Origin: Protonemura montana
Lineage: Eukaryota; Arthropoda; Insecta; Plecoptera; Nemouridae
Assembly (NCBI GenBank): GCA_947568835.1
Contig: OX387603.1
Coordinates: 22,592,651 to 22,656,650 of the forward strand
Direction of reading: 5' to 3'
Length of the DNA: 64,000 nt
The notes under the pieces were generated by a model that saw only the letters and a program-made list of their open reading frames with translations, was not told the origin of the DNA and did not search any database. The position numbers and the translations under genes are program-made. Of this stretch, positions 4,313 to 44,998 are shown piece by piece. The stretch's first letter is position 1. Each line of letters starts with the position of its first letter.

Positions 4313-7300
4313 ATGTTGCAAAAATGGAAAATTCTACATTTTCCACGCCGCGTTCTTTGCAGAACCCTCCGTCCAATGTCCGAGTCCGATTCGAGCACGG
4401 CGTCGGCGAGCGCCGCGGCGCTAAGCAGGGAGTCCTACATCACGAAGGAGCACGCTAAGCAGGAATACCTGGCAAAACAGGAGTCTGGACTCACCCACGA
4501 GTGTGGTGTATTTGGATGTATAGCCGCGGGAGACTGGCCGACGCAAATCGACGTACCCCAGGTCATCTGTCTGGGGCTGGTGGCATTACAGCATCGGTGA
4601 GTCTGCTGACAGGCAGGGTTCGCCGTTTTGACACTTAAGGGTTCAAGGTTGGTAGGTAGGTCTTTTCAGTTAAAGAGTGAAAACTGACTTTGGATTGCTT
4701 CTCAAGACTCCAGTCTGAGAAGCTGCGACTCAGCTAGTAAAGAACACAGATGCTTTTTCAGAGCATAGCATGGTCAAAGTTTGGTCAAGTAGGATTGTCT
4801 CAGAAACATAGTGTTATCAGAGATATGTCATTTAAAATTATATTCTACTTATCATGATTCTTGGTAGGAGTCAGAAGAGCTCAATGCCTTAGACAGATAG
4901 CAAGATTGCAATGTGAAATGTTTATGTAACTGCTTCATGGAATTGTTCATCAGCTCTTGTCTAATCTGTTAAGAAATAAATGGCTAACATATTAACAAGC
5001 TTTCTGCTTTACTCTCCCATGACACTGTAAAAAAGTTACTACCCTTTCAAGCACAGAGTAGAGGCTCCATGAGACTTTGATCCCAGATATTTTTTATGTT
5101 TAGTTTTTTCAAAGAATAACTTCCCAAAGTACCAATTCTGCAACATTATCCATGGACTCCTGATTTTTGTGGAAAGGATTGCAGTAAGGGTCTAAACAAT
5201 CCATTCAGGCTCTGTAAACCTAAAAAATGTTTTCATATGAATCAAATGAATAACTGCATTACTTCGCAATTAGAGCCCCCACTAATTTCCGCCTTGTGCT
5301 TTACAGCGGCCAAGAAAGTGCAGGTATCGTCACCAGTGTTGGCAACCAATCCAAGTCATTCCACACTCACAAGGGCATGGGTATGATCAGCAATGTTTTC
5401 ACGGACGAGACCATAAAGAAGCTCAAGGGCAACCTGGGTATCGGTCACACCCGTTACTCCACCAGCGCCGCTTCCGAGGAAGTCAACTGCCAGCCATTCG
5501 TCGTTCACTCTGCGCATGGTGCACTGGCTGTGGCACACAATGGAGAGCTCGTAAACTGCGGCTCACTGCGCAAGATGGTATGCTTCTGCAGATCTGTCTA
5601 GATCTGTCTCTTCGTTTCAGTAGCTATGACGAATTTTTGAGATTGATGTTATAATTTGTTTTTAGATTGTAAAGGGTCCTAAACTTAAGCAACTGATACC
5701 ATTGCCTTCATTCATGGATCACGTTTTGACTTTGAATGCTAAGTGTTTGGTCCTGATTCGTTTGGACTACATCTTGAGTCTCACTTATGTCACAGGTGCT
5801 CGGTCGTGGAGTGGGTCTCTCAACGCACTCTGACAGTGAGCTAATAACGCAGGCACTGTGCCTGAACCCCCCTGAAGGCGAGGTGGATGGGCCTGATTGG
5901 CCGGCACGAATTCGTCACCTTATGCAGCTAGCTCCGCTCTCTTATTCGCTGGTCATCATGCAGAAGGATCGCATTTATGGCGTGCGTGACCCTTATGGAA
6001 ACCGCCCTCTCTGCCTTGGCAAGATGATGCCCATCAAGACCAAAGGCGGTCAGTACCCACTTCCCAACGTCTTTCATCGTGGTAGGTTACAATCTTTGTT
6101 TTTTTTATTAGGATCTAATTTGACATTGAAGTGTAGGTACGTACCGTCTTTGTTGTTTTTGTTTTATTTATCATTCTGTGAATTTGCTATGAATATTTAT
6201 ACAGAAAAATGATTCCAGATTTTACCTCTGAAAGGTTTTGAATATTCTTTCAACTAAATATTGGATTTTTATTGCTATTTAAGATTGAATGGCTTGCATG
6301 TGATTTTTAAAGATCATACTTCCTTTCATCTAACGCTTAATCTTTTAAAAATTTCTTATTGCAGGAGAGTATTGCATTAAAATAGATAATGTGGATATGA
6401 GTAAAGGAAGCAAGAAAGTAGAATGGGACCTGCCAAGAGAAGCGACAAAAGGCCACGAGGGTTAAATTATTGTCGACATTTTGGCTGTAGCTGGATCACT
6501 TGCTAGAGAGAGACTCTACAGAGAACACCGAAACACAGACACAACTCTTAAATTCTTGCGGCCTAATGTTGCTTCTCTACTTTTCTCTACCTCTTACACG
6601 TATCCAGCCTTTTGGAACACCAAATGGTGGAGTCCTGGGTGTAGTGTAGTCCTACCTTTTTTTTAATTAACTATCCATAATTTTATTTCAAAGAAATTTT
6701 CTGAGGTATGCAAACTAATCCCTTTTTGCCCTATCCACCAAAATCGTCCTATTTTGCAACTTTGATGAAGGTTAATAACAATCGAATTTAATGCCAAAAA
6801 TTCACGAGAAAGATGTATGAGCCTTAAAAGCTTCGAAAAGTTTCAAATGTTTGGTTGAAGTGCAAAGATATTCTTCAAAAAATGTCCTTAGTTCAAATTT
6901 TTCTTGGGGTTCTTCTCTTCCCCCCCCCCCCCCACCCCCCACTCCATCAAGGTGAAAAATGATCCTATATATACCTTCTTATTTCAGCACTATACCGCTG
7001 GGTCACTATATTATACCACTACCACTTAACAACGAAGCCACTACGTACCAAACACATTCAACTTTGCTTATATTATAGTTATAGAAATTTAGCTAACCAC
7101 CAATGTTTTACGCAGGTGGGGACAACAGTGACACGGAAAATGAGCCTGAGGGCTGGGTAATCTCGTCAGAGTCGTGCGGCTTCCTGTCGATTGGAGCGCG
7201 GTACATGCGCGAAGTCAAACCGGGGGAGATCGTAGAGATGACCAGTCGTGGGGTACGGACTATCGACATAGTCGAGCGACCGGACTCAAAGCCTCAGGCA

Positions 7301-9042
7301 AGTTAGCTCATCATTTACGAGTTTACGAACATATTAAACTGGTGCAAATCAGCTGTGGATAAAGCTGATGTGAAAATCAGGAGTGGGTTTACTTATTTCT
7401 TTTTTGTGGAAATTTATTGCAGTAACTATGTTATGATAAAACTTCTTGATGGATTATTATTTTCTTCTCATATCTGATGAGGCATTTGTAAAGAAAACAA
7501 AAATAAGAAACCAGGTAGTGAAAAAAAAATACATGTAGGGATAATATAAATACCAAAAAATGTAAATACACTCTTAGACATTGTGCAGACTAGAGGCTAA
7601 TTAAAATTTGTACGCAGGCATTCTGCATCTTCGAGTACGTGTACTTTGCGCGTTCCGACAGCATCTTCGAGGGCCAGATGGTGTACTCGGTGCGCATGGA
7701 GTGCGGCCGCGTGCTGGCGCGCGAGTCTGGCGTCATCGCCGATATCGTCAGCTCGGTGCCTGAGTCGGGGACTGCCGCTGCACACGGGTACGCCCGTGAG
7801 GTGAGCTACAAAGCACTGCCTCGTGCAGCATTTCCCTGCTAGTAATGGGTCTTCTTCTCAAAGGTCCATTGCTCAAAACTTTGAAAAATGCAAGCTTCTC
7901 CCTTTTCCTTCACCAGGTTTTTGCTCAAGATATTAAGACTTAGAGGTGCTTCGATTCATCTTAAGATTTCGATTTCATGCACCCATTGAGCTCTTGAAGG
8001 AAGTGTATTTTTATGTCTTGAAATTTGGTTCGTCTGACAACTTACCTTTTCCAGCAAACTAGTAATGATGGCCTTTGAGATCTTAGTGAGCCGGTAATAC
8101 ATTCAAATTGCACAGATCCTCTAGGGCCTTTATCTAAGTAGCATGTAGGAAATCTCATGTCTGCATTAAGATTTCGGCTCTCTCGGTCGTTGCTTCTCCT
8201 ATTTTAGTGATTTCTTTTTTTCTGACTCTTAAAGCATTAATACTGTAACCTCGTATTTGTTTCTCACCGCTCGTCACATCTCTTTCCAGTCAAAGATTCA
8301 CTTTGCCGAAGTACTATGCAAGAACCGGTACGTGGGACGCACATTCATCCAGCCGAGCACCCGCCTTCGCCAGCTGGGTGTGGCCAAGAAGTTTGGCGCC
8401 CTCAGTGAGAACGTCAAAGGCAAGAGGCTGATCCTGATCGATGACTCCATCGTCCGTGGCAACACGATCGGACCGATCATCAAGCTTCTACGCGACGCAG
8501 GCGCCAAGGAGGTGCACGTTAGGATTGCATCTCCTCCGTTGCAGTATCCTTGCTACATGGGCATCAACATCCCGACTAGGGAAGAGCTCATTGCCAATAA
8601 GCTCAACGCTGCTGACCTTGCAAAGGTCGTTGGTAAGACAGATTTTCTATTTATCCTAGAAACAACGCCAAGAAGCCTTTTGATCTGTCATGTTTTTGTT
8701 TTTACATTTATTACACATTTCGAAATATTTCGAATTCGTTGGAACATTTTGAGATAAGATGTAGTCCATACCTTTATATGGCCTGGAGAAATTCTGAGAT
8801 TTTACTCTGAACATTACTGTAGCCGTAGTTTTCTGATCTTTTCTCTTGACTTACGATAAATGTGAAGACAATAAGTGTCTGATCCCAGTGTGTTTGCTGC
8901 AGGTGCTGACAGCCTGGAGTACCTGTCTGTGGAAGGGCTCGTTCAAGCCGTGCGACACCGCATGGTCGATCGCGACAAGAGCCACATTGGCCACTGCACC
9001 GCGTGCCTCACTGGAATCTACCCCGAAAACCTCGAGTGGTAG
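4313..9042 (+). CDS. PPAT: PPAT: amidophosphoribosyltransferase (glutamine PRPP amidotransferase)
   Basis: This enzyme catalyses the first committed step of purine synthesis, PRPP plus glutamine to phosphoribosylamine, in the cytosol. Exons are 4313-4596, 5307-5577, 5796-6081, an optional 6365-6460, 7116-7297, 7618-7800, 8290-8632 and 8903-9042, all in phase. The product is about 562 residues without the optional exon and 594 with it. The Ntn-hydrolase nucleophile is the Cys of HECGVFGC (about residue 64 from this start). Then come [15 protein letters not shown] and [10 protein letters not shown] of the glutaminase domain. The PRPP loop [13 protein letters not shown] and the C-terminal [16 protein letters not shown] lie in the transferase domain. 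A second in-frame ATG at 4376 is an equally good start. The intron after 7297 begins with GC (GCAAGT). The gene is divergent from PAICS. Confidence 0.95.
6921..6941. repeat. Poly-C tract in a PPAT intron
   Basis: A run of about 15 C followed by an A-interrupted C run sits in the PPAT intron before the exon at 7116. It is a simple low-complexity tract whose length is likely to vary. Confidence 0.8.
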
Positions 9043-10389: not shown

Positions 10390-11473
10390 ATGGCAGCCTC
10401 GAGCGAGCTAAACAATGCTCGATTGAAGTTAGAGGATTCTTTGGGTGAAGAAACCAAATCCAAGTGAGTTATCTCGCAGATGTTTGTTAAAATTGTGGTT
10501 GTGTTTGACATAACTGACATAACCCTCAAACCTTGTTTATATTCACAGATATTTTCATCTACTCAAACAATGGTTCAAAATGAAGTCTTCCAGAGAAGAG
10601 TTTTATAGCGAATCAAGAAAACTCCTTACCCAAGATCAAATGATTCTCCACAACAGCTTTTTACTCAATCTATTTAACATCTGTCAGTTCCCTGTAACGA
10701 CGTCTAGCTTGCCACAAGTTGTTACCAAGCAAGTGCTAATTCCCGTGCCTCATAAAGCAAGCCCATCAAGAGAGAAAGATAGAGAGAAGGAAAAGATGAA
10801 AAAAGATAAAGTACGACCACGCAAGAGAACCCGCTCGGATCGTGGTTTTGAGCCTACCGACTTGGCTGAGTTAGCCCGTCCGTATGTCTTTCCACCTAAA
10901 GAATTGAGAGAACCGCTGCGATTTGTACACGAAGAATTCTTTCTGCCTGATGCTTCATTTATTCTGGGCCGCATTCTTCTATGTGCGTGGGACCATGGGC
11001 TAGACGGGGGAAATGAAATGGCTGCAGAATATTTAGTTGCTGCTGTCCAACAATTCTTAAAAAATGTTCTCACTGCAATTTTTGGCCAGAGAAGTGGGTA
11101 CAATGTTCAAGAAGGTCGATTTCAACATGGTATGGGATCATTGATTCCAAATCCATGGCTTAAAAACACAGCTAGAATAAAGAACTACACAAATGAATTC
11201 ACCCCTACTGAGCTAGACGAAGAGACAGATGAGTGTCAAGTGCCTGGGTCAAGACCAAATTATGAAGACATAGAGCAACGAGCTGCGTTTGAGATGTCGT
11301 GCTCGACCAAACCTACTGTAGTGAAACCTCCAGTGTCAGTCTTTCATCTTCTGGAAACATTGGCTACAGAACCAAATATCATTCCCTCACACCAAGTATA
11401 TGCAATAAATGTTGAGCGGATCTTTGCCCATCTCAATCACCCGTCACACGAAGAACTCTCGAAAGAAAAATAA
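10390..11473 (+). CDS. TADA1: TADA1: SAGA complex adaptor subunit (Ada1/STAF42)
   Basis: This is a nuclear subunit of the SAGA histone acetyltransferase coactivator, where it forms a histone-fold pair. Two exons, 10390-10463 and 10549-11473, are joined in phase 2 across an 85-bp intron and give 332 residues, close to the family length. The start ATG at 10390 has a good context. Recognisable family blocks are the N-terminal YFHLLKQWFKMKSSREEF and RLLTQDQ-like SRKLLTQDQMILHN. In the histone-fold part are GRILLCAWDHGLD, then VAAVQQFLKNVLTAIF. Later come the GRFQHGMGSLIPNPWLKN block and the C-terminal IIPSHQVYAINVERI, HLNHPSHEEL. A lysine/arginine-rich linker at about residues 90-120 is a likely nuclear-localisation segment. 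A polyadenylation signal, AATAAA, lies at 11591-11596. Confidence 0.93.
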
Positions 11474-11596: not shown

Positions 11597-14500
11597 TACG
11601 GTTAATAACAAATTTAAATGTCTTCTTTGCTCGTTAAAATCTGCTTTATCCTAGAGCTTTTGAGGGTACGCAGGAATACGTACGTAGGTGTTCTGCGGGC
11701 TGCCTACTAAACAACTCGCAGGAGCGGTCGGTTTCGCCCCGTACGGTTGGCTGGCTCGTCTGGTCTGTCGAGGTCATTTGGCGACCTCATCTCTCTTCCG
11801 TCTCTGCCACTTGGCTGGTCTGGCGCTCGCCGACGCCTGCAGAGTTTTAAGCATCTCATTTAAATATATCTTCATCACAGTCTTTTAAACTTTATCCAAT
11901 TATCGATACTCAATTAAACCCAAAAATAACACTCCATTTTAATTACGAAAGCCGCAACTGTACGTTGCTATGTACGGAAATTGAGCGTTTTACTATCGCC
12001 CCTTATAGCTTGCTCTGTATCTTTCTGGTTTTCTTTTTAAACTAAACGTTATCACATTAAATTATTATCACATTACGTGAACTATAAAGTATGACTGGCG
12101 TAAATGACCATGCAAATTGTACATACTAATTGCATCAAATAAGTGATCAGTGGCCGAGCGATTCTGAGCAGCACTCTAAAAAATATGTTCTATTCACTGA
12201 TGGCACCGGAAACCTAAAAAATAGGTGTAAGGGGAGTCGCCGTATCCTTTCTCGCCACCCTTTCTGACCGGTGGACGACAAAAGACCCCACCAAACTCCG
12301 CATGACGATTCTCATACTATATACAAAGTTACAAAACTTCTTATATAAAAAACAGCCTATCTCCAAACCAGATCGTAGTCTTAAATCGGAATCCATCCAC
12401 GTCTGCCCATTCTCCGGCCAGGACATTGAGTGACAGACCCGACATCGATACACAAGTCGCTATAAATTATTAGACATTGTGTGAAAATAATCCCCGTCCA
12501 TTCCCTGGCCTTATCTCTTCGCATCCATCCATCGCTCGGCACAAGGACCGGCCGCGCTCAGCGACAGCAAGCCAGCAAGGGCCTGCCTTGCACCTGCGAC
12601 GACGACCCTGCCCGCTGCCTCCTGGCATACGGCGGCCTCTGCGATGCGGGCCTCTCCTTCACTCCAGCCCACCTGTTGTCAACGGCGACCTAGGCGGCGG
12701 CGGTGGCGGCAGCGGCTGCAGCGCGCGACCGAGCCACAGGAGGTCCCACTTTACCCCTCGCCTCCCCATCCCACAAACCAGCCGCCGCGCCACGCAATGT
12801 GGGCCCCCTGTCGGTTGGCTCCCCCCAGCAGCGATATCCTCTGTGGCTCTTCACACCCAACCAATGAATGTTACCGGTTTTTTAACAACAAAAAGAATCC
12901 TCGCGTTGTGTGTGCAAGAGAGGGGACGGAGATAACTCGTCGTCGGCGGCGGCAGCAGTAGAGGCAACAGCAGCAGCCGACGGTCGCCGGCAAAGGAGCG
13001 GAGATATAGGCGTTAGATTCTGCCGTGGGAAGCAGTCGTGAACTAGAACCGCTATCACAAAGGCGACGCTGCTCTCAGATCTCAGGTCTGCTGGTTTCAC
13101 GCGACTATCGGGACAATAGCGCAGCCTGCACGCTCGCCGTCGCCGCCGTCGCCGCCTCGCATATGTGTGATATTTCATATTGAGGGCGACGATCATCTTA
13201 GCGGTACCTTCTTGTGCGTCGCCGTCGGTCGTCGTCGCAGTGCGCGCGGTGTTTCATTCTCCTACCGACGAGCGGCTAGCGAAGACCGTCCTGCGTCCGT
13301 GCGAAGCAATTAGACGACGCCGAGACAGAAGGGCCATCATTCAAGAGTTAACCAGCGGGGTGCTGCTTACTGCACGGCAGGCTACAGGCAGGGGTCACCA
13401 GTGCGTAGGCGACCACACGCACATACGGCAAGGCAGAAAGGTGAACGAGGTACGTCAGTTACTAAGTAATTTCGCAGTCATCTCGTGTGTCAGCCGCGTC
13501 GGCGAGCGACTCGGAGGAATGGTATTGATGTCGCGGCTAGGAAGGCGACGGTGCCCGCGGTCTGATTGCGGATCGCCTGCTAATTTCCCATGACGCGAAC
13601 ACACGAGGCGTGAAAGGGCGTCTCGTGCTCGGGTCGGCCGGCGGGCGCTCAACGCAGCCACCAGCGACACGTCTGGCTGCTGACCGCTCGTGCAGCTGCA
13701 AATTGCCCTCTGAATGATTATCATTGTCAGCAAGCAGCCTCTTCTCTCCGCGGCTCGTCGTCTGCTTGTTTTGATTCGCCGTGTCAATTATGCGCGGGCG
13801 CGGGACCCATTAATTTCGTTCGCAATTCGCTCGATGTCATCGTCATGTGCGTTTCGGTCCACGTTTTCGTCGATCGTGATGACGGGCGGGCGAGCGAGCG
13901 GTGTCCTCGGGAATGGTTTTTTGATTGCGATCGTCATTGTATCGATGCCGTGTCGACGCCAGACGAATGGTAATCGTTCCAACTACAGTATAAATGTCCT
14001 CTCCTCTCTCAACGAGCCGAGCCAACTCGCGAGGCAAACAAAGAGACTAGTGGTGGCCCCCCCACATCGTAATCTACAGCTTTACACAGCTAATGGACTT
14101 TCATATTGTGTGTATTTTTGTATTTTATTATCTCTGTTGCTCTTGCCCTACCTCCCTAAGTGGTAAAATATTATTAGAAGACGTCCCCTGGTCTGATCCC
14201 ACGGCGATCTCGTCTTGGCCGATCAGAACTTGCCTCTGGGAGAGCGCGAACGTGGGCACTTGCCTTGTCGCGTCCGGACGAGAAAAACCTCACGACGCCG
14301 ACCGCGACGACGACGACGAATAGAGGAGGTTGCTGCTAGATTTGCGGTTTCAATTCACACTTTGTGATTCAGAGACGCTGGGTTGCGTCCGACTTGTGGT
14401 TAGCCGGTCCAATAATTCGTGGAATCCGTCTTTGCATGATCACTGGCCCGGCCACCACTTTTGTATTCGAGGGACCGAGCGGGGGAAAATATTCACAGCG

Positions 14501-16694: not shown

Positions 16695-19544
16695 ATGGGG
16701 GAGATTACGGACGAGCGGCAGACGGCGGCCTCGTCCCCTTTGGCCCAGGTACGTAGCCAGCGTTGTGTGCGCAGAGGATGCCGATAAGGGAAGGCAGACA
16801 ATGGGCGAACGTGTCCCCGCCGCCGCCTGCCATGGGTGGGTCACGCACGCACGCACCAGCACGCAATCAAGTGGATGGCTGGCCGTGTGCGGGTCGAGCC
16901 CAAATCACGTCGACGCGGCGAATCGAGACATCCTTGGTCGTGGATTGGGTAGCAGCAGCATGGCCGTGATTTTAGTGGCAATCAAACATATCAAAAAGAC
17001 CCTGGGGAGATAGTTTGCTTTTTAAAATAAATGAAATATTGTTTGTAATGTCTCGGGTTCAAACCCCTGATAAGATAATCGGCCAGTAAATTCTCCGAAT
17101 GTCGTCGCCTGTGATGCCGACGGATCTAATCGTCAATTAATATTCCACGTCAATATTCATCATCTGGCATGCATATCAATTGGAAACACTGCGACCGCCG
17201 ACTTTCTCTCCTTAAAAATCGGCGTGTGTCGGCATTGGACGCCGCAATAAAGAAGTGTCCGTGTCTGATTTTCGCAGAGCGACAGCGAGGGCAGCACGTC
17301 CAGCTATGACCTGGGGTCGAGCGTAGCAGGGCTCGCCATCAACGCCGCTGCCTCCAAGGAGAGCCTTGTCAAGTGCAGGTACGTTTCTCTGCCAGACTAA
17401 ATCCCAAACCCTTCCACAGACGCTAATCTTGGCCCCCCAGCGGCTGCATCGGCGCCTGGAGGATTTACTGATAGTGATACTCAGAACCAGTCGGGTATCT
17501 CTTCGTGGCCTACAAAGATATCGACCGAAATAGACGCGAGCGAAAAAAAATCGTTGGACTTTTGGCGGATAAAATCTCCAGACTGGTAGTTCGATGTTGG
17601 AATCATTCCCCATCTCATTCCTCAATAGATCAATTTCACGAAGTGGAGATAGAGACTGGATTTCGGCGGCTCAGAGCTGGGGGTCGCGATCCCCAAGTGA
17701 TAGTAGCCATAGTTTCTCCGCTGAGCGAGTTTTGTTGGATCATCCTGCACTTTAGACCCTCGGTCACCCGGCGTGCACGTTATCACGCTGCCTCCCGCGA
17801 AGTCGAAGAGTCAGCTGTTCGAGTTTGCTAATGAAGCGACTGACAGTAAATTGATCAACTAGCAATTTGACATTGCAAAACTAATTGGCTTGCCTATGCA
17901 AAAAAAAAGAGGAAGTAAATAATGAGTCGTGTATTTTGTCCTGCGTTTGAATACTTGAAATGTATTGGAGGCCGAAGCCAATGCCAATGATAAAATATCT
18001 CTGTGGGAGGACTGGAATGTGCCACTCATTTCTGTCATACTCCAGTGCACACTGCGTGAGATTAACGCCCTAAAGATTTGACAACAGACCCTCATTGACT
18101 CTAAAATTAATTAAAGTAGCAGAAGCAGGGAATATAAATTGCTCCTTCTTTATTTACCACATCAAATCAATGGCAGTCTATTCCAGCCTTGCACCATATT
18201 TCTCCATAGAAAATTACGTTCAAATGCGACCTATTATACCGTTGGCATAACTTTCCTCAAGTCGCAACCCCCACCCTCTAAATCACATGATATCGATATT
18301 CATGTCTAGCATTCTGATTCCCAGATTGCAAACCACCTTGGCCCACCCCACAATTAACCACGTCCTATGGTGTCCTGATGTTCGTACTTGCTTCTGTTGC
18401 AGGTGGTCCGATTGTGGACAGTGGTTTGAGCACCTCGATTTGCTAGCATCGCATGTGACAAGGGTGCATGCACAATCTGGCCGAGCTGGACTTTTCTACT
18501 GCGGCTGGGAAGGGTGCAGTCGTGGGGATCGAGGGTTTAATGCGAGGTGAGTTCGATTTTAGGAATGAATATGTGACGATAAGCTCCTTTCACAATTTTA
18601 AAACTCGATGGCACACATCACAAGTCAGCTTAACACAGAAAAATTATCTTTGCTACTCCAAGAAAACCTTCAAAGGTTAAAAGTATTTTAAAATTTTATG
18701 TCATTATAAAATAATCAATTAACAGATTAAAACTGCAGTAAAACACATGTTAAAAGAACTGTATCTGGTCATGCCATTTAGGAGACATTCTTTAACCCAA
18801 CTCTCTCTCGTCGACAGATACAAGATGCTTGTCCACGTTCGCACGCACACCAACGAAAAGCCGCACCACTGCTTCAAGTGTGACAAGAGCTTCAGCCGTG
18901 CGGAGAACCTCAAGATCCACGCGCGATCGCACACTGGCGAGCGTCCGTATGTGTGCCCCATCGCTGGCTGCGGGAAGGCCTACTCCAACTCATCGGACCG
19001 CTTCAAGCACACACGAACGCACTCCATCGACAAGCCATACGTTTGCAAAGTGGCTGGGTGTCCAAAGCGCTACACGGACCCCAGCTCGCTACGTAAACAC
19101 GTCAAGACCTATCGACACTACCCTGAGGCAGACAAGGCGGAGTCAGTGCTTGAGGTACTGGCACGCGAGCCAACGCCCCCCAAAGTGTTGAAAAGAGACA
19201 GCACTGGTGCAGCAAAACCGAGTTTTGCAGAGAGATGCGAAGAGGACGCCGCAGGGAAAGAGTCGTTCGTCGATGGCCAGGGCACGCAGTACGACCTGTT
19301 TCGGTCCTGGCTCAATGCAGACCTGTCAGTTTTGTCGCGGTCCCTGCCACTGGGACTTTCGTTGTGGAGTCATCCATTGATTGGGCGGGAGGACTACGTG
19401 AGGCCGAACGTGAGGTTCGAGGCTCATGGTGTAAAGCACAGTCGGATGGACTCTTCGAGTAGTGATGACGCGATGGATGCCGGCATCAAGGACCAGGAGT
19501 GTCCTCTGGATCTCACGATTCACAGGGCTAGCACGAGGACGTAG
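16695..19544 (+). CDS. GLIS2: GLIS2-like zinc-finger transcription factor (sugarbabe/Glis2 family)
   Basis: A nuclear Kruppel-like factor with five tandem C2H2 fingers of the GLI/GLIS/ZIC type. Exons are 16695-16748, 17278-17378, 18403-18546 and 18818-19544, all in phase, giving 341 residues. The ATG at 16695 sits in a strong context. Finger 1 is C51-x4-C56-x12-H69-x4-H74 and finger 2 is C85-C90-H106-H110. Fingers 3-5 follow with [20 protein letters not shown] and the diagnostic [12 protein letters not shown] and [12 protein letters not shown] blocks. These match GLIS2 better than GLIS1/3 or GLI. The final finger has HVKTYRH, an unusual spacing. The C-terminus ends with PLDLT, a CtBP-type corepressor motif (P-x-D-L-S/T). 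The gene is shorter than vertebrate GLIS2 (about 520 residues), mainly outside the fingers. Confidence 0.9.
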
Positions 19545-30608: not shown

Positions 30609-33600
30609 ATGGCGGCTCTGATGTCTAGTATACGCACCGAACCCAAAATAGCGCTAATTTCCCGTTTAAAGAGTGCAGCAAAATCGTCGCATACAAAAGG
30701 CTTGATCCAAGGAAGGTGCCGTCTGATTGCGTCTGATTTTATAAAATATACACAATATTATATGGTCTACGCTCCTGCTGCAGTATTTGCCATGGCGAAT
30801 TACAAAACTCGGGGGCTCTTATGTGGTCTGTGGTGGGCTTATGAGGGTGGGGGAGAGAATCAGCTGCAGGCAAATCAGCTGTGTGAGTGCGTGCTTAGTT
30901 AGCTCAAAATGTTTAATATACCTTGAATATACCTGAATATACCCATCAGAAATCAAAATTAACTGTCAAGTCTGAAGTTGTGCTAAATACAAAAATTAAT
31001 AGAGAACAAGATATGGTGCAAAATGATAACAAGTTTTAATAAAGTGTTCATGAATCATTCAAAAGCAGGTATTTATTTTGGAAAGAGCAGTCTTAAAAAG
31101 TATTCGTTAGACAAGTATTTTTTCTATGCCTAGATCTTATATTGAAATGCAATGGCTAGACACAATTATCAATGTTTTTTAAATAATTGTGCCTTTAGGT
31201 GTATTTGCATTTTCTGGCTTATCCAAATGCTGCTGCTCAACCACATCAAATTATGTTGGCGTACGAAAAGCTAAACTGGCTCTAGAAAATCAACCACACA
31301 GGTTTGGTCAGCCAACGCCAATAACGCATCCTCATCTAATGCAAGATGGAGAGGTTTGTAATAAACCTTACTTGGCTTTGAGTACTCTAAAGACTATTAA
31401 AAGAAATTTTAGGTCACATACCATTTGCTCTAAACAGGTAACACCAGGAATACAGCTGGAAGAATACCAAGATCGAAGGTGCAAATTGATGGAGAGCATT
31501 TATAAACATGCAACACGACAAGAAAACAATACAAAACAACAACATGTTGTTATTATTCCATCAGCATCAAAGGTTTACATGACTGAAAAAATCCCTTACG
31601 TTTTTCGACAAAACACCGACTTCCTCTACCTTAGCGGCTGTTTGGAGCCAGACAGCGCCCTTGTGCTTACTGGTGCACAAGGGGAGGATCACATGTCAAC
31701 ACTTTTCATGCGAAAACGAGATTCCCAAGCTGAGCTCTGGGATGGACCGCGAACAGGAATTGAAGAGTCTCCGACACTTTTTGGAGTTGGCCAATCATAT
31801 CCTGTTGGAGAGATGGATAAATTTCTTGCATCGTTTTCAAAATTGCACCGCAGTTTCACTCTGTGGTACGACTTTATGCAACCAACGCAAATAGACGTCC
31901 ACAAAACTATGAGAGACTTCTTAAGCAATACCTGGAATAAGGTCTTTGTATACATTCTATTTTCTGAAGAAACTTTGTTGAAATGCATACCGGTGTTAAT
32001 AGCTTGTTCATCAACCTGATCTCTTTACCAATTAGACGTGGGAGTCTCCTAAAAAGTTAATCCATCGTCTGCGCCTGTACAAATCACCGGGGGAGATAGC
32101 GCTGATGACCAAGTCGTGCCAGATCGCTTCAGATGCAATCGCCACCACGATGAAGTCATCACATCCAGGTGTCACGGAGCACCAGCTGTTTGCTAGGGTT
32201 GACTATGAGTGTCGGACAAACGGAGCCGAGTTTCTGGCTTATCCTCCTGTGGTTGCCAGTGGGGATCGAGCCAACATTATTCATTACATCAACAACAATC
32301 AGATGGTGGGGCACAACGACACGATTCTAATGGATGCAGGTGAACAACATGTATTTTCTATCCCTAATGTGAGAATATTTGAATGAGCTAATCATGGAAA
32401 ATAATAAACTACTTCACCATTAGCTTAACTGAAATAGTTAACATGTGAATTCGAGAAGAATTTTACGTGGCATGATCTGAAATTTGCTGGTTGCAGTTGA
32501 TTCCTTTATCACTTTCAATTAGTAATGATCCCCCTTTCCTTACTTATTGTATTGATGAGATATTTATCCATCTACCTGCCAAGTGGCCAAAATAGTCTAG
32601 TACATAGTAAAAGCATAGTAAACGTATTCTACCTATTCCAATTAATATAATCTTTATCATATAAAGGTATATCTTATACCTCAATTTATATCTAAATTTG
32701 TATTTAATTTTGTCATATTTTTGTTTATTATAACTTAATTTTTATTAATAGTACTTAGCACTGGTGGCAGTGTTTTTCTCTTAACTTGTAACATTTTAAT
32801 TGTTCATATTCAAACGTGCTCGAAATCTTGGTCGAATCACTCTGACAGCCATTGCACCCTCATCGTTTGGCAGGATGCGAGTATCACGGATACAGCAGTG
32901 ACATCACGCGCACGTGGCCCCTGTCAGGCAAGTTTTCCGCGCGGCAGCGCGATCTCTATGAGGCGGTGCTCTCCGCACAGACGGAGCTGATCGCGGCGTG
33001 CGCGGAGCGGCCGTCACTAGACGAGCTGTTCTCGCAGATGTGCGCAAAGCTGGGGCGGAACCTGCGAGATCTTGGCTTCCTGCCAAGGAATGCCACCGAA
33101 GACGATATGGCAAGAGTAAGTTTATCACTTTGTGAGCTTGATTGTGACTCGGATAAAATAGGTGATGTTAAAATTTTGCGTGCTGTGCTAGTAGTTTATT
33201 TTTCTGTGAATAACTGGGCAAGCACCGAAGGTGAAGGAAGGACTTGTATGTGAAATGTTGATTGTATAGAAAACAAAAATTAAAATTAACTGTGTTGTAC
33301 CCAGACGCAATGTATAAGCGTTGAGTGTGCAGGTTGTAGGTAGAGGCAGAATGTTAATGTTACAGTTTCTGCTTGAAATATGGCCGCCAAATGACTACCT
33401 TACCGACAAAAATGCAGAGTACCGGAACACCCCGTTAAGTGGAGCCACTATCGTATGAAATTTAATTTGAATATTTCTCGTAGGTTACTCGCTTTTGAAT
33501 ATCGTTACCTGTATATCAATCGTTGAGGTAAACATTGATGGAGATCTTTTGAGCATGAAAAGTCTCTAAAGCAAGAAAGCCTACGAGAAATATCTAAATT

Positions 33601-35334: not shown

Positions 35335-36264
35335 TCTTTTAACAGTGACTTTTTTTAAGAATTGATCTTTATATTTAACAATTTTAAGTCATATCTACAT
35401 AAAAGTTTTAAGTATGACTGATGAGCTGATGGGTCTTTCTGTAAATTAGTTTTGTAATTATTCTATTTTGTTATTGAAGTCTTCCATTTTAATCTCTGTT
35501 TTGAGTAATTTTTGGTCGTGTGGCTGTTATTTAATAAAAGGTATGTGAATTCATTTATTGGTAGTTCATTTCATATTTTGTGTGAATTCTTTTCATTGGT
35601 TGGCTATGGGTGTGACGTATCGCATGGTTACGGCCGATTCTGTCCTAACAAGCACGCCGCGGATACAAATAGAATAATAATTCTATCACGTAATTTCACC
35701 AAGTATAAAGTAAAAATTGTTCATCAGGCAATATACCGAAGCAATTACACTGACAGGTAAGCGATCAACTTGCATTTACTACTTGGGGATATCGAAATGG
35801 TAGAGATTAATTGCTACCACAATGCCGCCGCTTGCGGCACCCATTTTTGTTTAACGGACAGCGAAGCAACGCATTTATTTTTGCCAGTGACGCTTAGCTT
35901 GGCGCCCGCATTTCTCGATTAGTTCTCCATTTAGCTACCAGGTAGTGCCCGAGTCGCGCCAGCCAGTTTTCAGCTCAGCCAGCCAAGGCGTCACCCTGTC
36001 TGGCAAAGCGACTTTTGTGTTTAGTGTGTTGCCAGATGTATCAGTAACAGAATAGTCAGTAGGAATAACGACCAGTTTTCTTCCATCCCTTGCAACTTCC
36101 ATCGTTTACCAATTCAAGTGTCGTGTGATTACTGATATTGTATCATAATAACTTATAAAATGCACAAAGTATTACTCATTTCCCTGGAATTCCTCAGTGA
36201 CACATACCCGTGTGACAACGCAGCGTCTAAACTTGTTTCTTCCCCTACCTTTTTTCACACTCAC
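35335..36264. other. XPNPEP3 3' region and upstream region of the brinker-like gene
   Basis: No coding exon is recognisable. AATAAA at 35533-35538 is a candidate polyadenylation signal for XPNPEP3, about 200 bases after its stop. The rest is presumed regulatory DNA for the brinker-like gene. Confidence 0.55.
35533..35538 (+). terminator. Candidate polyadenylation signal of XPNPEP3
   Basis: Canonical AATAAA lies about 200 bases after the stop codon on the same strand. Confidence 0.55.
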
Positions 36265-36297: not shown

Positions 36298-36785
36298 TTG
36301 GTGAGAAGAATTTAGATCCTCGCAAGTGGTCAGTTACTGTGCATTCGACTAATTTCAACTAGATTAATTTGCGTACGGACTGATTTCGGGAAGCATTCGT
36401 GTGTTGGCAAGGAATCGCGACGAAGGCATTGAGGCGGATTCGTGCGTGACAAAGGCGTGTGAGTCTCGTGCGCTTGGTTCGTCGGTCGGGTCGCCAACTT
36501 CAAAGGGCACAGCAGTGTTTGGTAGACAAGATGGCGCCATGACGTAGCTCGCAGCCGCCAGCCCACATCCGCAGGGGTCGGGGAGCGAGGGGCACCCGAT
36601 GCTTTATCTCCGCACTAGCCAAGAATGAGAGATGTGAGGGGAAAATCGCTTTCGTCAACGAAACCCAGGGAGTGAGAGAGATCTCGGCCTGTTAGATGAG
36701 TGTTGAAATCGCGGTAGCCGGTTTTGTTGTGTGATTGCGTCGTCCTAGTCGTCCTCGCAGCTCGCAATTATTTCCCGAGCGAGCC

Positions 36786-38636
36786 ATGGCTGAAGGGCTC
36801 GGGATAGAGGTAAATGTCGAGCCGCGGGTGAAACAAACAGACTCGGCTGAAGAAAAGAAAACGGCAACGGCAAGATCAGTGCGAAAAAACGTCGAGGGTC
36901 GAGTGATGGGATCGAGAAGAATATTCGCACCGAATTTCAAATTGAAAGTTTTGGACTCTTATCGTCAAGATTCCGATTGCCGCGGGAATCAAAGGGCGAC
37001 GGCAAGGAAGTATGGAATTCATCGTCGCCAGATACAGAAGTGGCTTCAAGTGGAGGCTTCCCTCCGCACCTCAGTGGAAGTATGCCCCGTCCCCGCATCA
37101 CCAGAGCGAGTGGCCTTGAACCTCTGCGCCGATGCCGCTGCCGCCGCCACCACCGCCGAAGCTGGCAGACAGCTCGACGACAAGGCTCAGCCAGCAGAGG
37201 AGGCGGCTGCCGCCGCGGCTGGGGAAAGTCACCAGCAGGCACCTTGCCAACAAGGCGGCTCCGCTTTGCCCTTGCCCACCGGCAAACCCACCGCTTTATC
37301 TAATGCCTCGGCCAGCGCCGATCAAGCTCAAGTTGAGGAAGACTCCAATCTAAAGCAAATGGTACCGCCAACTCCTTCCTTCCCTTCCGTCCCCATTGAA
37401 GTGCCTATTTCGGAAGATGACGACCACGATGAAAAAACAGAAGTCACTGTTAGCCTATTCCCTACTGTCAAAATCGAACAACTTCTTATTAAAAAAGAGC
37501 CACTAAATAATTTTAGTCCACAGTCCTTGAAAGACTACACCTTTGATTCGCACCCCTCCCCTCCGATCTCGAGATACGACACGCCTATCGGCGACGACGA
37601 TTTGACGGTGGACGAATTAGATTCCGAGGACGAAGAAATCAACATTGTCGACGGCTGCGAGCAAGCGCTTGACTTCACGTGTGCAGCTCTGAGCAAGCGA
37701 CGTTCCTTCTCGCTACAGTTCAAGCTGGAGGTGCTGGATGCGTTCCACGCCGGCCGCCACTGTCGGGGGAACCAGCGTGCGACAGCGCGCCAGTTCGGCA
37801 TCAACCGGCGGCAAGTACAGAAGTGGCTTCACCAGGAAGACGAGCTGCGTGGTGAAACAGTGTCGAGGGTCGGGATGCTGCGCCATCGGCTTGGTCGCTG
37901 GTCCGAGATGGAAGACGTGCGGCCAATCGAAGAGAGTCAGGAAACAGCATGTGCCTTGGATCCCAGCCGACAATCGCCAAATGATTGCTGGGACCTTTCC
38001 AGTAGGAAACGAAAATCAATACCTCTCAACGTGATACCGTTTAAAAAACGGACTGTCGAATTTTTATTAAAACAAGAAAACAAAGACTACATTAGACATA
38101 TTGAAAATGCGACCGCCTGCAATGAGCGAGTTTCGCCAGTTGTCCAAGAAACCGCGTTGTGCCTCATCAAACCCAAGTGCCCTCCAAAAGAAGAGACGCG
38201 TAGCTGTGCCGAGACGCTTTCGGAGTGCGGCAACGACGAAGTGAGCAGTTCAGTGGACGTGACCCGTGTCGTCGGGCAAGCTCTCTACCATTCCAGCCGT
38301 GAGCAGGAAATGGCACGATGCTTCCCCTTGCCTCCGACCTCGCACCTGCCCTTGTGCTTCCCACCTGGGCTGGGGTTCCCAGGGTTGCATCACATGCTCA
38401 GTCTTTACCAGGGCTACGTGGGGGAAAAGGCACAGGCAGGAGCCCTTTACCCGCATGACCTAAAGCTGCAGGCTATGGAGAACTTCCACGGGGAAGTCGC
38501 GTGGCGGTCGAGCCAATTCTCGGCGGCGTCGCGCCTCTCAGCCGAACACGACCGTTTGCAAAGGTGGATGAAGCACGAAGACCAGTTGCGCCAGTACCAC
38601 GACAGTTCACAGATCATAAATGTGTTTTCGGTTTGA
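36786..38636 (+). CDS. brk: Brinker-like transcriptional repressor with two intact and one degenerate Brk DNA-binding domain
   Basis: Single-exon gene of 616 residues. The start is the ATG at 36786 (GAGCCATGG, good context). Drosophila Brinker represses Dpp/BMP target genes through one homeodomain-like BrkDBD. Here the first domain (about residues 43-96) reads GSRRIFAPNFKLKVLDSYR, then CRGNQRATARKYGIHRRQIQ and KWLQ. It is very close to the known domain. A second (about 303-356) has SKRRSFSLQFKLEVLDAF, then CRGNQRATARQFGINRRQVQ and KWLHQEDELR. A third (about 553-604) keeps only HDLKLQAMENFH and DRLQRWMKHEDQLRQ and has lost the CRGNQRATAR core. Between them lie Ala-rich and acidic linkers. No canonical P-x-D-L-S corepressor motif was found; QALDFT at about 296 is a weak match. 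Family membership is clear, but strict orthology to brk is inferred. Confidence 0.85.
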   Translation: MAEGLGIEVNVEPRVKQTDSAEEKKTATARSVRKNVEGRVMGSRRIFAPNFKLKVLDSYRQDSDCRGNQRATARKYGIHRRQIQKWLQVEASLRTSVEVCPVPASPERVALNLCADAAAAATTAEAGRQLDDKAQPAEEAAAAAAGESHQQAPCQQGGSALPLPTGKPTALSNASASADQAQVEEDSNLKQMVPPTPSFPSVPIEVPISEDDDHDEKTEVTVSLFPTVKIEQLLIKKEPLNNFSPQSLKDYTFDSHPSPPISRYDTPIGDDDLTVDELDSEDEEINIVDGCEQALDFTCAALSKRRSFSLQFKLEVLDAFHAGRHCRGNQRATARQFGINRRQVQKWLHQEDELRGETVSRVGMLRHRLGRWSEMEDVRPIEESQETACALDPSRQSPNDCWDLSSRKRKSIPLNVIPFKKRTVEFLLKQENKDYIRHIENATACNERVSPVVQETALCLIKPKCPPKEETRSCAETLSECGNDEVSSSVDVTRVVGQALYHSSREQEMARCFPLPPTSHLPLCFPPGLGFPGLHHMLSLYQGYVGEKAQAGALYPHDLKLQAMENFHGEVAWRSSQFSAASRLSAEHDRLQRWMKHEDQLRQYHDSSQIINVFSV

Positions 38637-40512: not shown

Positions 40513-41307
40513 CCATGGCTAGTATGTTTTAGAAAGATATATGTGTGAGCTGGGGGAATATGAAAAACCTTTTTTGGGATAGGCTTTACCTAGATTTTAT
40601 GAACTGTCAGATGGCAGCTAGCATTTTAGAAATGTCTTCTCTCAAATTGAGTTGTAATAAATGATTTTGCCTATTATTAAGCAACTTATTTGTAGTTAAT
40701 AATGTATTTGTGATGAAACTAAATTCAATCCAGCCAAAATTGTTGTTCTAAGATAAAAGCATAGAATGAAGCCTTATCCTTGGTCTATGATATGAGTGTG
40801 TGGGAAATAAGTAAACACAACTCCTAGAATTAAAACCTTTATCTGAGAATAATGATCAATGTTCAATTGATATATCGATTTAGCATTATAGATTTTGTTT
40901 GTATTCTTCTAAGAAATCAAATTGTTTGCTGTGAGGATTGTATCAATAATTTTCCTGGCTAGCTGTTGAAATCTATTTTTAGAGGTAGGAGATTTTACAA
41001 GGAATTACAAGAAAGTATTCAAAAACAAAAATGACAAAAATGACCATGTCCCAGTTTACAACCCAGTACTTTTCCCTAAACCAGTACCATGAACCTTACC
41101 CTCGAATGTTTCTTAGTGTGATGATAGTTTGAAAAAGTTGATTCATTTTTTTAATTTTTAATTGCTTAGTCCTCTAAGAAAGTAATGAACTATTTTCAAC
41201 CTAAAATCAATTTCTAATATACGGGGAAATTAAGACGAAGTTATTGCATGAAACAGTTAAACTCTGCTTGGAATGGTTTTTGAAAAATTTTGAAATTTTG
41301 TTTCTAG

Positions 41308-41486
41308 GAGCAGCAGCAAGCAGAACCTCAGAGAAACTACCTTTCTTACGGCAGCGGGAGACGAACTACCGAATACAGCAACTTTGGAAACAATACATTA
41401 ATAGTTCACAACAGAGTACCAAACCGGCAAAATCAAAAATCATCAGAATCAAAGATTTGTGTGCTGATGTGAATAGTTGCTTGGAA
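41308..41486 (+). other. 5' part of the kelch-gene exon, probably untranslated
   Basis: The exon after the acceptor TTTCTAG (ends 41307) is open in frame with the kelch protein from its first base. The first good ATG is at 41487. The 59 in-frame codons before it (including KLPFLRQRETNYRIQQLW) could be coding in a longer isoform that starts in an upstream exon, or be 5' untranslated. Confidence 0.45.
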
Positions 41487-42823
41487 ATGGCTGACAAAAA
41501 TTTGGTTGTAGACAATACGAGCTTTCCATCAAATCTGAAAAAAGAAATATGGTACCTTGCCTGTCCAACTGGCTACCTTCCAGAACCCAGAGTGGGCCAC
41601 ACTGCTACATACCTCCCTAAAGAACACAAAATTGTGTTCATTGGAGGTGCAAATCCCTCGTTGCTACACAAAGACACTTGGATGCTAGACTTGGCCCAGC
41701 TTCAATGCGGTCGACTGTCGATCAAAGGCGACTTTGAACACCGCTACGAGCACTGCGCTTTTGTTCCCGAAAATATCAGCAGCAGAGCTGAGTACCAGAG
41801 GACGACTATCTGGGTATTTGGGGGCGCACATATGGAAGGCAACAGGAATGATCTGTGGGAGCTGGACTTTGGTGCTTTGAAATGGAATAGTGTTACTCAG
41901 ATGGGAAGCATTCCTACCGACAGAACAATTCATACAAATACATCAGCAATAGATAATAAACTATTGGTGTTCGGAGGGGGTTCGTTGGGAAATGCTGCAG
42001 AACCCGACACGAACGTTTATGAATTGGACCCTCGAACAAAAAAGTGGTCTTTGAAAGCTACAAAAGGGGAGTCTCCACAACCAAGAAATGGACATGTTTT
42101 GGTTGCAGTCAACGACAAGGTATCTGAGGCAAAAGGAATACACTGTTGCAAACAGCCAAATAAGTTTACAGAAAGTTTCACCAGTTCTACGCAATTATAA
42201 ACTATTTTATTTCACTGTTCCAGCTACATGTCCACGGAGGGTTGTCGGGAACTACGTTTTTCGATGATATGTACGTCCTTGATAACAAGGGCATATGGTC
42301 CCTTGCAGTTACTTCCGAAGTTAAACCTGCTGCTAGGGCCAGCCATGGTGCAGTCAGCCACGGATCCTACATTTACCTGTTTGGTGGACTCGGAGTAGCG
42401 GGAGTACTGGGTGACTTCTGGAGGATTAGTACGGACAGTTATATATGGGAGGAAATGGCTGTCATCACCCCGACTTTATGTCCAAGGCTGGACTTTGCTA
42501 TGACTGTTGTCGATTTGCCAGGAAAGTTTAGTGGGAAAAGAGTCGAGGAGATTTGTGATTCTGACCTAGACGATGGAGATGTTAATTCAATCGAAGATTA
42601 CTTGAGTAAAGGTGCAGAGAGGAGTAATAAAACCTATCCAATTCATGGAAAAGGAGACAGTAAGAATCAGTTATGGTATCCTTACATTGTCATTCATGGG
42701 GGAATGGATGGTAAAGGGTCAATATTTGATGACTTTCATCTTTATGGTCTAGATCCAAAGAATGATTTGTCCAGATTTGTTGAACTACAAAAGTCACTTA
42801 AAGAAATTCTTGTTATAAGCTAG
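41487..42823 (+). CDS. RABEPK: RABEPK-like kelch-repeat protein (Rab9 effector p40)
   Basis: Two exons, 41487-42119 and 42224-42823, in phase 0, give 410 residues against about 372 in human RABEPK. The ATG at 41487 has a good context (GAAATGG). It lies 21 residues before the WYLA motif, much as the human start does. Six kelch blades are visible: VFIGGANPSLLHKDTW, IWVFGGAHMEGNRNDLW, KLLVFGGGSLG, LHVHGGLSGTTFFDDMY, IYLFGGLGVAG and YIVIHGGMDGKG with IFDDFHLY. RPRVGHTATYLP-like PRVGHTATYLP and HRYEHCAFVP match RABEPK closely. In the family this protein binds Rab9-GTP and helps endosome-to-Golgi recycling. An acidic insert lies between blades 5 and 6, as in RABEPK. Confidence 0.88.
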
Positions 42824-43148: not shown

Positions 43149-44998
43149 ATGATTCACAGTCTGTTCATCATAAACACATCTGGGTAAAGCAATAATGTTT
43201 TTGGTTATGTTTGCATATTTTAGAACATATGTGCATCTTTGGTGCAACGTGACTTGTTGCATAGAATTTGGAATGAATTTCAATGCTTGATCCTTACAAA
43301 CAAGTTTTAGCAACTATTTAACACAAACTTAATGGTTTTGGTTCTAGGGATGTATTCATGGAAAAGCACTGGAAGAGTGTAATTTCACGGTCAGTATGCG
43401 ATTACTTCTTTGATCAACAACGGAAGGTTGGTGTGCCAGAGGATATGCCACCAGTCATAGCTACACCACACCATTATTTGATCAGCATCCATCGCTGCTC
43501 AATGTTTTTCGTAGCTGTGTCCATGACGGACCTTCCTCCGTTGTTTGTGATTGAGTTTTTGCATAGGGTAGTCGACACGTTTGAAGACTATTTTGGGGAA
43601 TGTACCGAGTCTGTCATAAAAGAACATTATGTTGTTGTTTATGAGCTGTTGGATGAGATGCTAGATAATGGATTTCCACTAGCAACTGAGTCTAATATTC
43701 TCAAAGAACTAATCAAACCTCCAAATATTCTGCGTACAATTGCTAACACAGTTACCGGAAAATCAAAGTGAGTAATAGAATAATGTAGATTTACAATTGT
43801 CTTTTAAATTTCAGAAAAATTTGTGCTTAAAAAACTATATATGTGTGTAATCATATTTAGAATTGACACAATTGTGACTTAATTGCAGCGTTAGCGCAAC
43901 ACTTCCAAGTGGCCAACTTTCGAATGTGCCATGGCGCCGCACAGGAGTGAAGTATACAAACAACGAAGCTTACTTTGATGTGGTCGAAGAGGTGGATGCC
44001 ATTATTGACAAAGCAGGAGCTACAGTTTTTGCAGAAATCCAGGGTTATGTAGATTGTTGTATCAAACTTAGTGGAATGCCAGACCTGACGCTCTCTTTCA
44101 TGAATCCTCGACTCTTTGATGATGTTAGTTTCCACCCATGCGTTCGCTTCAAAAGATGGGAGGTAATCATCAGAAACCTAAACAGAAGAAATATGCATTA
44201 TCTTCTAGAAATGTCTAATGTTAATCTTTGATATTTTTATTTTCAGTCTGAGAGAATTCTTTCTTTCATCCCACCAGATGGTAGCTTCAGGTTGATGTCT
44301 TACCACATTGGCTCTCAAAATGCTGTTGCAATACCAATCTATATTCGGCACAACATCTCATTCAAAGATGTTGGCGGAGGTAGATTAGATATCACTGTTG
44401 GCCCAAAACTTGGTGTCGGCCGAATTCTTGATGCAGTCACCATCGAAATTCCTATGCCGAAGTCAGTTCTCAACTGCAGTCTAGTGTCAAATCAAGGGAA
44501 ATATTCATTTGATCCTGTTTCCAAGATACTCTTTTGGGATGCAGGGAAAGTAGATCCTGCCAAGTTGCCAAATCTAAGGGGAACGGTAAGTTTTCTAGAT
44601 CAGCTGCTTGCAAGCTCATTTTGATATCTGGGCCTGTACAATATTTATTTTTCAGATAAATCTTCAAGCAGGAGCTCCAGCTGTCGAAGCCAATCCTTCC
44701 ATGAACGTACGAACATTTTGCTTGGTTTATTTTACTGACGTCCATGATTTCCAATTTCATATCCAGCCAATTATTTCTATTTTCATATGAGAATGTACTT
44801 GTTTTACTGCTGATAATGCACACATTTGGAATTTTATTGAATGTTTGTGTTCTCTTCTTTTAGGTTCATTTCACAGTCGGTCAAACAGCTGTATCGGGAC
44901 TGAAGGTCAATCGTTTGGACATGTATGGAGAAAAGTACAAGCCATTTAAAGGAGTAAAATATCTTACAAAAGCAGGACGCTTTCAAATTCGTATGTAG
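43149..44998 (+). CDS. AP3M1: AP-3 complex mu subunit (AP3M, carmine homologue)
   Basis: Medium subunit of the AP-3 adaptor, which sorts cargo from endosomes to lysosomes and lysosome-related organelles. Exons are 43149-43183, 43348-43767, 43889-44162, 44247-44585, 44656-44706 and 44864-44998, all in phase, giving 417 residues (human 418). It starts MIHSLFIINTSGD as in the family. The longin-like N-domain shows EKHWKSVISRSVCDYFF and FVIEFLHRVVDTFEDYFGEC. The linker ends with NILKELIKPP. The mu-homology domain shows PWRRTGVKYTNNEAYFDVVE, KLSGMPDLTLSFMNPR, SFIPPDGSFRLMSYH and the C-terminal SGLKVNRLDMYGEKYKPFKG. An AATAAA at 45220-45225 lies inside convergent CutA, so the two transcripts may overlap. 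Confidence 0.95.

Follow-up and report, generated by a model that had tools for sequence, protein, structure and literature searches.

Results

A Brinker-like protein with a duplicated DNA-binding domain and a degenerate third copy

The window, i.e. the whole 64,000-nucleotide stretch of Protonemura montana DNA analyzed here, was found to encode a Brinker-like protein harboring two intact copies and one degenerate copy of the DNA-binding domain BrkDBD. The protein is specified by an uninterrupted coding frame of 616 codons plus stop on the forward strand (36786..38636; start ATG at 36786, stop codon at 38634-38636, no internal stops). We consider it likely that this is the insect's single brinker ortholog and that its product, a repressor of BMP targets, bears two DNA-binding domains connected by a flexible segment and ends in a third domain copy that no longer reads DNA; the gene would in its turn be silenced by BMP signaling. 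Of this reading, the coding frame, the homology of the three copies and the degree to which each is conserved, the single-copy status of the gene and the matches to silencer sequences were computed here.

Searched with the Pfam model of BrkDBD (PF09607) at a listing threshold of E 10, the whole protein yielded three matching stretches and 162.8 bits. Copy 1 (aa 42-97; 36909..37076, forward strand), the counterpart of the fly domain, scored 102 bits and copy 2 (aa 303-358; 37692..37859, forward strand) 68.8 bits, both passing the curated cut-off of 23.4 bits; the fly Brinker domain itself scored 127 bits on the same model. The piece carrying copy 3 (aa 550-605; 38433..38600, forward strand), searched alone, reached 14.8 bits (E 0.028 against 24,736 models), which is under the cut-off. 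The two-plus-one arrangement put forward in the preliminary description was thus borne out by these scores, and its expectation that the extra copies would be recovered by a profile search held for copy 2 but not for copy 3, which misses the cut-off though clearly homologous by the comparisons given below.

In a search of the PDB, the best match was to fly Brinker (2glo; E 2.3e-24), the next among the four matches listed having an E-value of 0.53. Aligned in register with 2glo, copy 1 was identical at 44/56 positions, copy 2 at 28/56 and copy 3 at 11/56, confirming the earlier proposal that copy 1 is the closest to the fly domain. Identities between copies amounted to 31/56 for copies 1 and 2, 13/56 for copies 2 and 3 and 10/56 for copies 1 and 3. 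The alignment also confirmed that both intact copies carry all residues of CRGNQRATAR and the motif RRQ(I/V)QKWL (RRQVQKWL in copy 2). Twelve Arg/Lys positions are common to copy 1 and the fly domain, ten of which are retained by copy 2 and five by copy 3. The general helix-turn-helix model HTH_28 gave a slightly higher score on copy 2 (31.3 bits) than on copy 1 (27.7 bits).

Copy 2, having diverged from both other intact domains, could read another site. A different DNA specificity of copy 2, such that the protein would bridge two kinds of sites, nevertheless strikes us as rather improbable. Copy 2 departs from copy 1 at 25/56 positions, among them the residue preceding RRQ (His in copy 1 and in the fly, Asn in copy 2), and two of the twelve shared basic positions are lost; against this stands the conservation of CRGNQRATAR and RRQ(I/V)QKWL noted above.

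Copy 3 appears to retain the hydrophobic pattern of the domain but not its basic surface

In pairwise comparisons, copies 1 and 2 scored 164, copies 1 and 3 58, and copies 2 and 3 71, the maxima over 5,000 shuffles each being 53, 47 and 56, respectively. A profile built from copies 1 and 2 together with the fly domain put the three copies at the top when all stop-to-stop segments of 30 residues or more in the six frames of the window (1,283 segments) were scored, a ranking in which copies 1 and 2 lead by construction. Copy 3 obtained 15.6 bits in this ranking and the next segment 5.3; scored separately, the C-terminal piece containing copy 3 reached 21.7 bits compared to 12.4 bits for the best of 20,000 shuffles. 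Since copy 3 outscored all shuffles and all segments of the window other than copies 1 and 2, it is, on sequence comparison, homologous to BrkDBD despite its score below the family cut-off. Chance similarity was ruled out, none of the 20,000 shuffles in the profile comparison and none of the 5,000 for either pairwise score having equaled it.

The preliminary description held that copy 3 had lost the core of the domain and might be a relic. The loss applies to the CRGNQRATAR motif and does not extend to the hydrophobic positions. Fifteen positions are hydrophobic in each of copy 1, copy 2 and the fly domain, and copy 3 has a hydrophobic residue at 14 of them; where all three have non-hydrophobic residues (27 positions), it has one at 4. 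None of 20,000 permutations reached 14. In agreement with its being a relic, copy 3 keeps only four of the ten Arg/Lys positions common to the other three domains, losing six, and carries a net charge of 0 (fly, +8; copy 1, +9; copy 2, +6). Of the 28 residues on which those three domains agree, copy 3 retains nine. The simplest reading is that of a helical domain devoid of its DNA-facing surface, the surface being deduced from charge; judging from these residues, DNA binding by copy 3 has probably been lost.

The gene appears to be single-copy and is improbable as a pogo-type transposase

A six-frame search of the whole genome (258 Mb, 34 contigs) with the BrkDBD profile at E 0.001 returned 36786..38636 as the sole matching gene, with the proviso that this search scores the best candidates only and that degenerate copies can escape it (copies 1 and 2 were listed, copy 3 itself was not). 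No second copy of the whole Brinker-like protein was found in the 258-Mb genome at E 10. As far as these searches reach, the gene is single-copy. On the strength of one domain, the single-copy status and the two short motifs upstream described below, we infer that 36786..38636 is the brinker ortholog of this insect. Three further searches, in which the Brinker-like protein was compared to viral contigs, the fly domain to genome contigs and a four-row alignment to viral contigs, produced 5, 116 and 169 pattern matches in viral, bacterial and archaeal collections, of which none was confirmed; these results have no bearing on animals.

BrkDBD is also listed for POGK and for pogo transposases of the Passer type, alongside HTH_Tnp_Tc5 and DDE_1 (PMC7386202). 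A domesticated transposase or the protein of a pogo-type element, rather than brinker, could accordingly be envisaged, the more so as weak matches to transposase-type helix-turn-helix models were obtained, all of them under their own cut-offs, and as CENP-B_N scored 25.1 bits on the whole protein (cut-off, 21.2). The fly Brinker domain itself, however, also matches CENP-B_N weakly (18.4 bits), and neither HTH_Tnp_Tc5 nor DDE domains were among the 13 Pfam families listed for the protein at E-values up to 10. Together with the absence of any other BrkDBD gene from the genome search, the 44/56 identity of copy 1 to fly Brinker and the silencer-element matches upstream of the gene, this makes a transposase origin extremely improbable, and it was rejected. 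POGK and Passer-type pogo proteins thus have BrkDBD in common with the Brinker-like protein and differ from it in their HTH_Tnp_Tc5 and DDE_1 domains; repeated BrkDBD domains are not mentioned for them in the accessible passages of the source.

Other genes were recognized in the window. An amidophosphoribosyltransferase-like gene was identified by eye at 5787-8757, with the Pfam model Pribosyltran just under its cut-off at 8257-8754 and no match at 5787-6209. A SAGA-Tad1 gene lies at 10580-11473, an aminopeptidase P-like gene at 31189-33253, and a kelch protein gene at 41244-42823 is followed by a Clat_adaptor_s piece at 43358-43771. In the genome at large, overlapping matches to telomere-type TTAGG repeats numbered 7,938 on the forward and 7,633 on the reverse strand, which, like the occurrence of brinker, indicates an insect; clusters are interior and far apart on one contig (at least 30.5 Mb), with positions 916562, 963644, 1042484, 1101522, 11637666 and 16524876 among the places listed.

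Matches to BMP silencer elements lie upstream of the gene

Fly brk is repressed by BMP signaling via silencer elements of the sequence GRCGNC(N)5GTCTG that are bound by Mad, Medea and Schnurri; the spacer and a T at position 15 permit Schnurri binding, and a relaxed form, GNCGNC(N)5GNCTN, has been used for predicting 13 sites (PMC3738585). An exact sequence match to the strict consensus is present 784 bp upstream of the ATG of the Brinker-like gene (35987..36002, forward strand), and a second silencer-element-like site (36523..36538, reverse strand) fits the relaxed form, its last base mismatching the strict one. The gene is thus preceded, within less than 1 kb, by two candidate silencer elements, one exact and one relaxed.

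Genome-wide, 612 exact sites were counted in 258 Mb compared to 413 for a reversed control pattern. The window contains two (35987-36002 and 14180-14195) against 0.15 expected. When the kilobase preceding the ATG was resampled 20,000 times at its dinucleotide frequencies, the fraction of resamplings with two or more 15-base matches was 0.0001, that with at least one was 0.0119, and that with an exact match over 16 bases was 0.0039. Among overlapping 1-kb tiles of the window, 1/256 had two silencer-like matches. The other exact match (14180-14195, forward strand) is situated in a GC-rich block at 12-18 kb, beside another gene; downstream of it is a C2H2 zinc-finger gene (ORF 18747-19544), near the end of whose product PLDLT was noticed by eye, which we take to be a CtBP-type motif.

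The second upstream site overlaps Brinker-type sites (TGGCGCC) and, within window 36523-36539, the palindromic Brinker-type site TGGCGCCA. It also holds a AAGATGGCG core, which resembles YY1/Pho-type sites, and given this core its presence may be due to another cause. Competition among inputs of the Mad, Brinker and Pho types is conceivable at 36523-36539. Another Brinker-type sequence match (TGGCGCC) occurs upstream of the gene at 35900..35906 (forward strand). Brinker-type sites of the form TGGCGYY were not enriched in the window, 22 being found and 22.57 expected. This chance-level count, the exact silencer match beside another gene and the YY1/Pho-like core of the second site weigh against reading the upstream matches as BMP silencers.

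Linker and corepressor-type motifs

Copies 1 and 2 are separated by 205 residues (linker 1; aa 98-302; 37077..37691, forward strand) rich in Ala, Pro, Asp and Glu, these and Ser being the commonest residues. A Pfam search of aa 101-301 returned a single chance-level match (E 8.4), and the composition suggests that the linker is probably disordered. Because of its 205 residues, rigid binding of paired sites at a fixed spacing would be unlikely. The linker contains two candidate SUMO-acceptor consensus sites flanked by prolines, PTVKIEQLLIKKEP (aa 226-239; 37461..37502, forward strand), identified by pattern match; the stretch resembles a synergy-control motif and may act as one.

Corepressor motifs for Groucho and CtBP in the fly are of the FKPY, WRPW and PxDLS types. 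A motif scan of the 616-residue protein detected neither FKPY nor WRPW, and its only PxDLS-like matches, ALNLC and CWDLS, were weak.

The two intact copies separated long ago

Copies 1 and 2 have 31 residues in common, for 23 of which their codons differ, and the NG86 method returned a dN of 0.31 and no finite value of dS for this pair, which we read as saturation. Amino acids thus appear to have been held while codons drifted, pointing to copies 1 and 2 having long been maintained by selection on protein sequence. By the same codon evidence, the duplication that separated them is old, and a recent event was ruled out by the codon differences. For copies 2 and 3, NG86 gave a dN of 0.74 and a dS of 0.91, suggestive of a much weaker constraint on copy 3; all NG86 values are rough, the pieces being short and divergent.

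How the present arrangement arose relative to the one-domain fly protein can be read in two ways. A two- or three-domain brinker may be the ancestral or a common form in insects, the fly protein being derived from it by loss of copies 2 and 3, a history to which we assign an even chance. The old split between copies 1 and 2 agrees with it, as does the fact that copy 2 is about equally distant from copy 1 (31/56) and from the fly domain (28/56), whereas copy 1 and the fly domain share 44/56 positions, the pattern to be anticipated if copies 1 and 2 had already split when this lineage parted from that of flies. Pulling the other way are the 12 positions that distinguish copy 1 from the fly domain: copy 2 agrees there with copy 1 in three cases, with the fly in none and in nine with neither of them, a weak lean toward copies 1 and 2 being sisters. 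Nor is a second domain mentioned in the literature on other insects, the accessible passages of which, covering butterflies, Gryllus, mosquitoes, honeybee, Clogmia, Musca and Oncopeltus, give no domain counts or domain make-up for brinker at all.

The alternative, which is that of the preliminary description and which we rate at somewhat under an even chance, is an internal duplication specific to the lineage of this insect, producing copy 2 and then copy 3 from copy 2, with fast evolution and decay of copy 3. It draws on the same three-to-zero count, on the greater closeness of copy 3 to copy 2 (score 71) than to copy 1 (58), on the finite NG86 values for copies 2 and 3, and on the GC content at third codon positions (GC3), which is 0.76 in both copies 2 and 3 and 0.50 in copy 1. 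The lack of a finite dS between copies 1 and 2 speaks against any recent event of this kind, NG86 is rough on such pieces, and the counts are too small to separate event orders. Copy loss in the fly lineage fits about as well as internal duplication in the lineage of this insect, the four domains offering too few informative positions to decide on the order of duplication or loss relative to flies. These two alternatives concern history only and both are compatible with the two-domain function proposed here.

Discussion

Brinker governs how the BMP gradient is interpreted in flies, a textbook case of signaling by relief of repression, and the fly protein is described with one DNA-binding domain. 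The P. montana protein resembles Drosophila melanogaster Brinker (CG9653; PDB 2glo) in its N-terminal BrkDBD, and its gene resembles fly brk in the silencer-element sequences of the same consensus nearby; the protein differs in having a second intact and a third degenerate domain. Potential brinker orthologs have been reported in honeybee and Nasonia (PMC3995682), and brinker has been reported in Gryllus (PMC8051952) and Oncopeltus (PMC6444547). No description of a multi-domain Brinker was found in the full-text papers searched, which come largely from outside the subscription journals; in insect sequence databases the multi-domain form may well be visible already and even be common.

The fly Brk protein recognizes GGCGYY by way of an intrinsically disordered DNA-binding domain that becomes folded on DNA (PMC3738585; PMC8085671, the latter a review that cites work by simulation and NMR). 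The favored reading, in which the single brinker ortholog encodes a two-domain repressor, would operate as follows. A BMP (Dpp) signal would act through the Mad/Medea/Schnurri silencer elements near the promoter and turn the brinker-like gene off; where the signal is low, the protein would repress BMP target genes. Copies 1 and 2 would each be expected to fold on GGCGYY-type DNA, and the approximately 205 flexible residues between them would allow one molecule to hold two loosely spaced sites or, alternatively, to bind groups of weak sites with greater avidity than a single domain would permit. Copy 3 would be expected to keep a helical fold that no longer reads DNA and at most to make protein contacts. 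Repression would proceed via recruited corepressors, perhaps aided by sumoylation in the linker. In this reading we infer that the gene is orthologous to brinker, that copies 1 and 2 bind DNA, that two domains confer avidity, that the protein acts as a repressor, that BMP signaling regulates the gene, and what fold and role copy 3 has.

A bolder version, in which a two-handed Brinker would read two sites at once by virtue of its long flexible linker, use copy 3 as a protein-contact module, impose a sharper threshold against Mad than a protein with one domain and be confined to part of the insects, appears doubtful to us.

Should a two-domain repressor occur in other insects, what has been learned in Drosophila about thresholds, site grammar and competition with Mad may not apply to them, and the fly protein may be a reduced form. 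Copy 3 would also exemplify a domain whose hydrophobic pattern is retained while its DNA-binding surface erodes.
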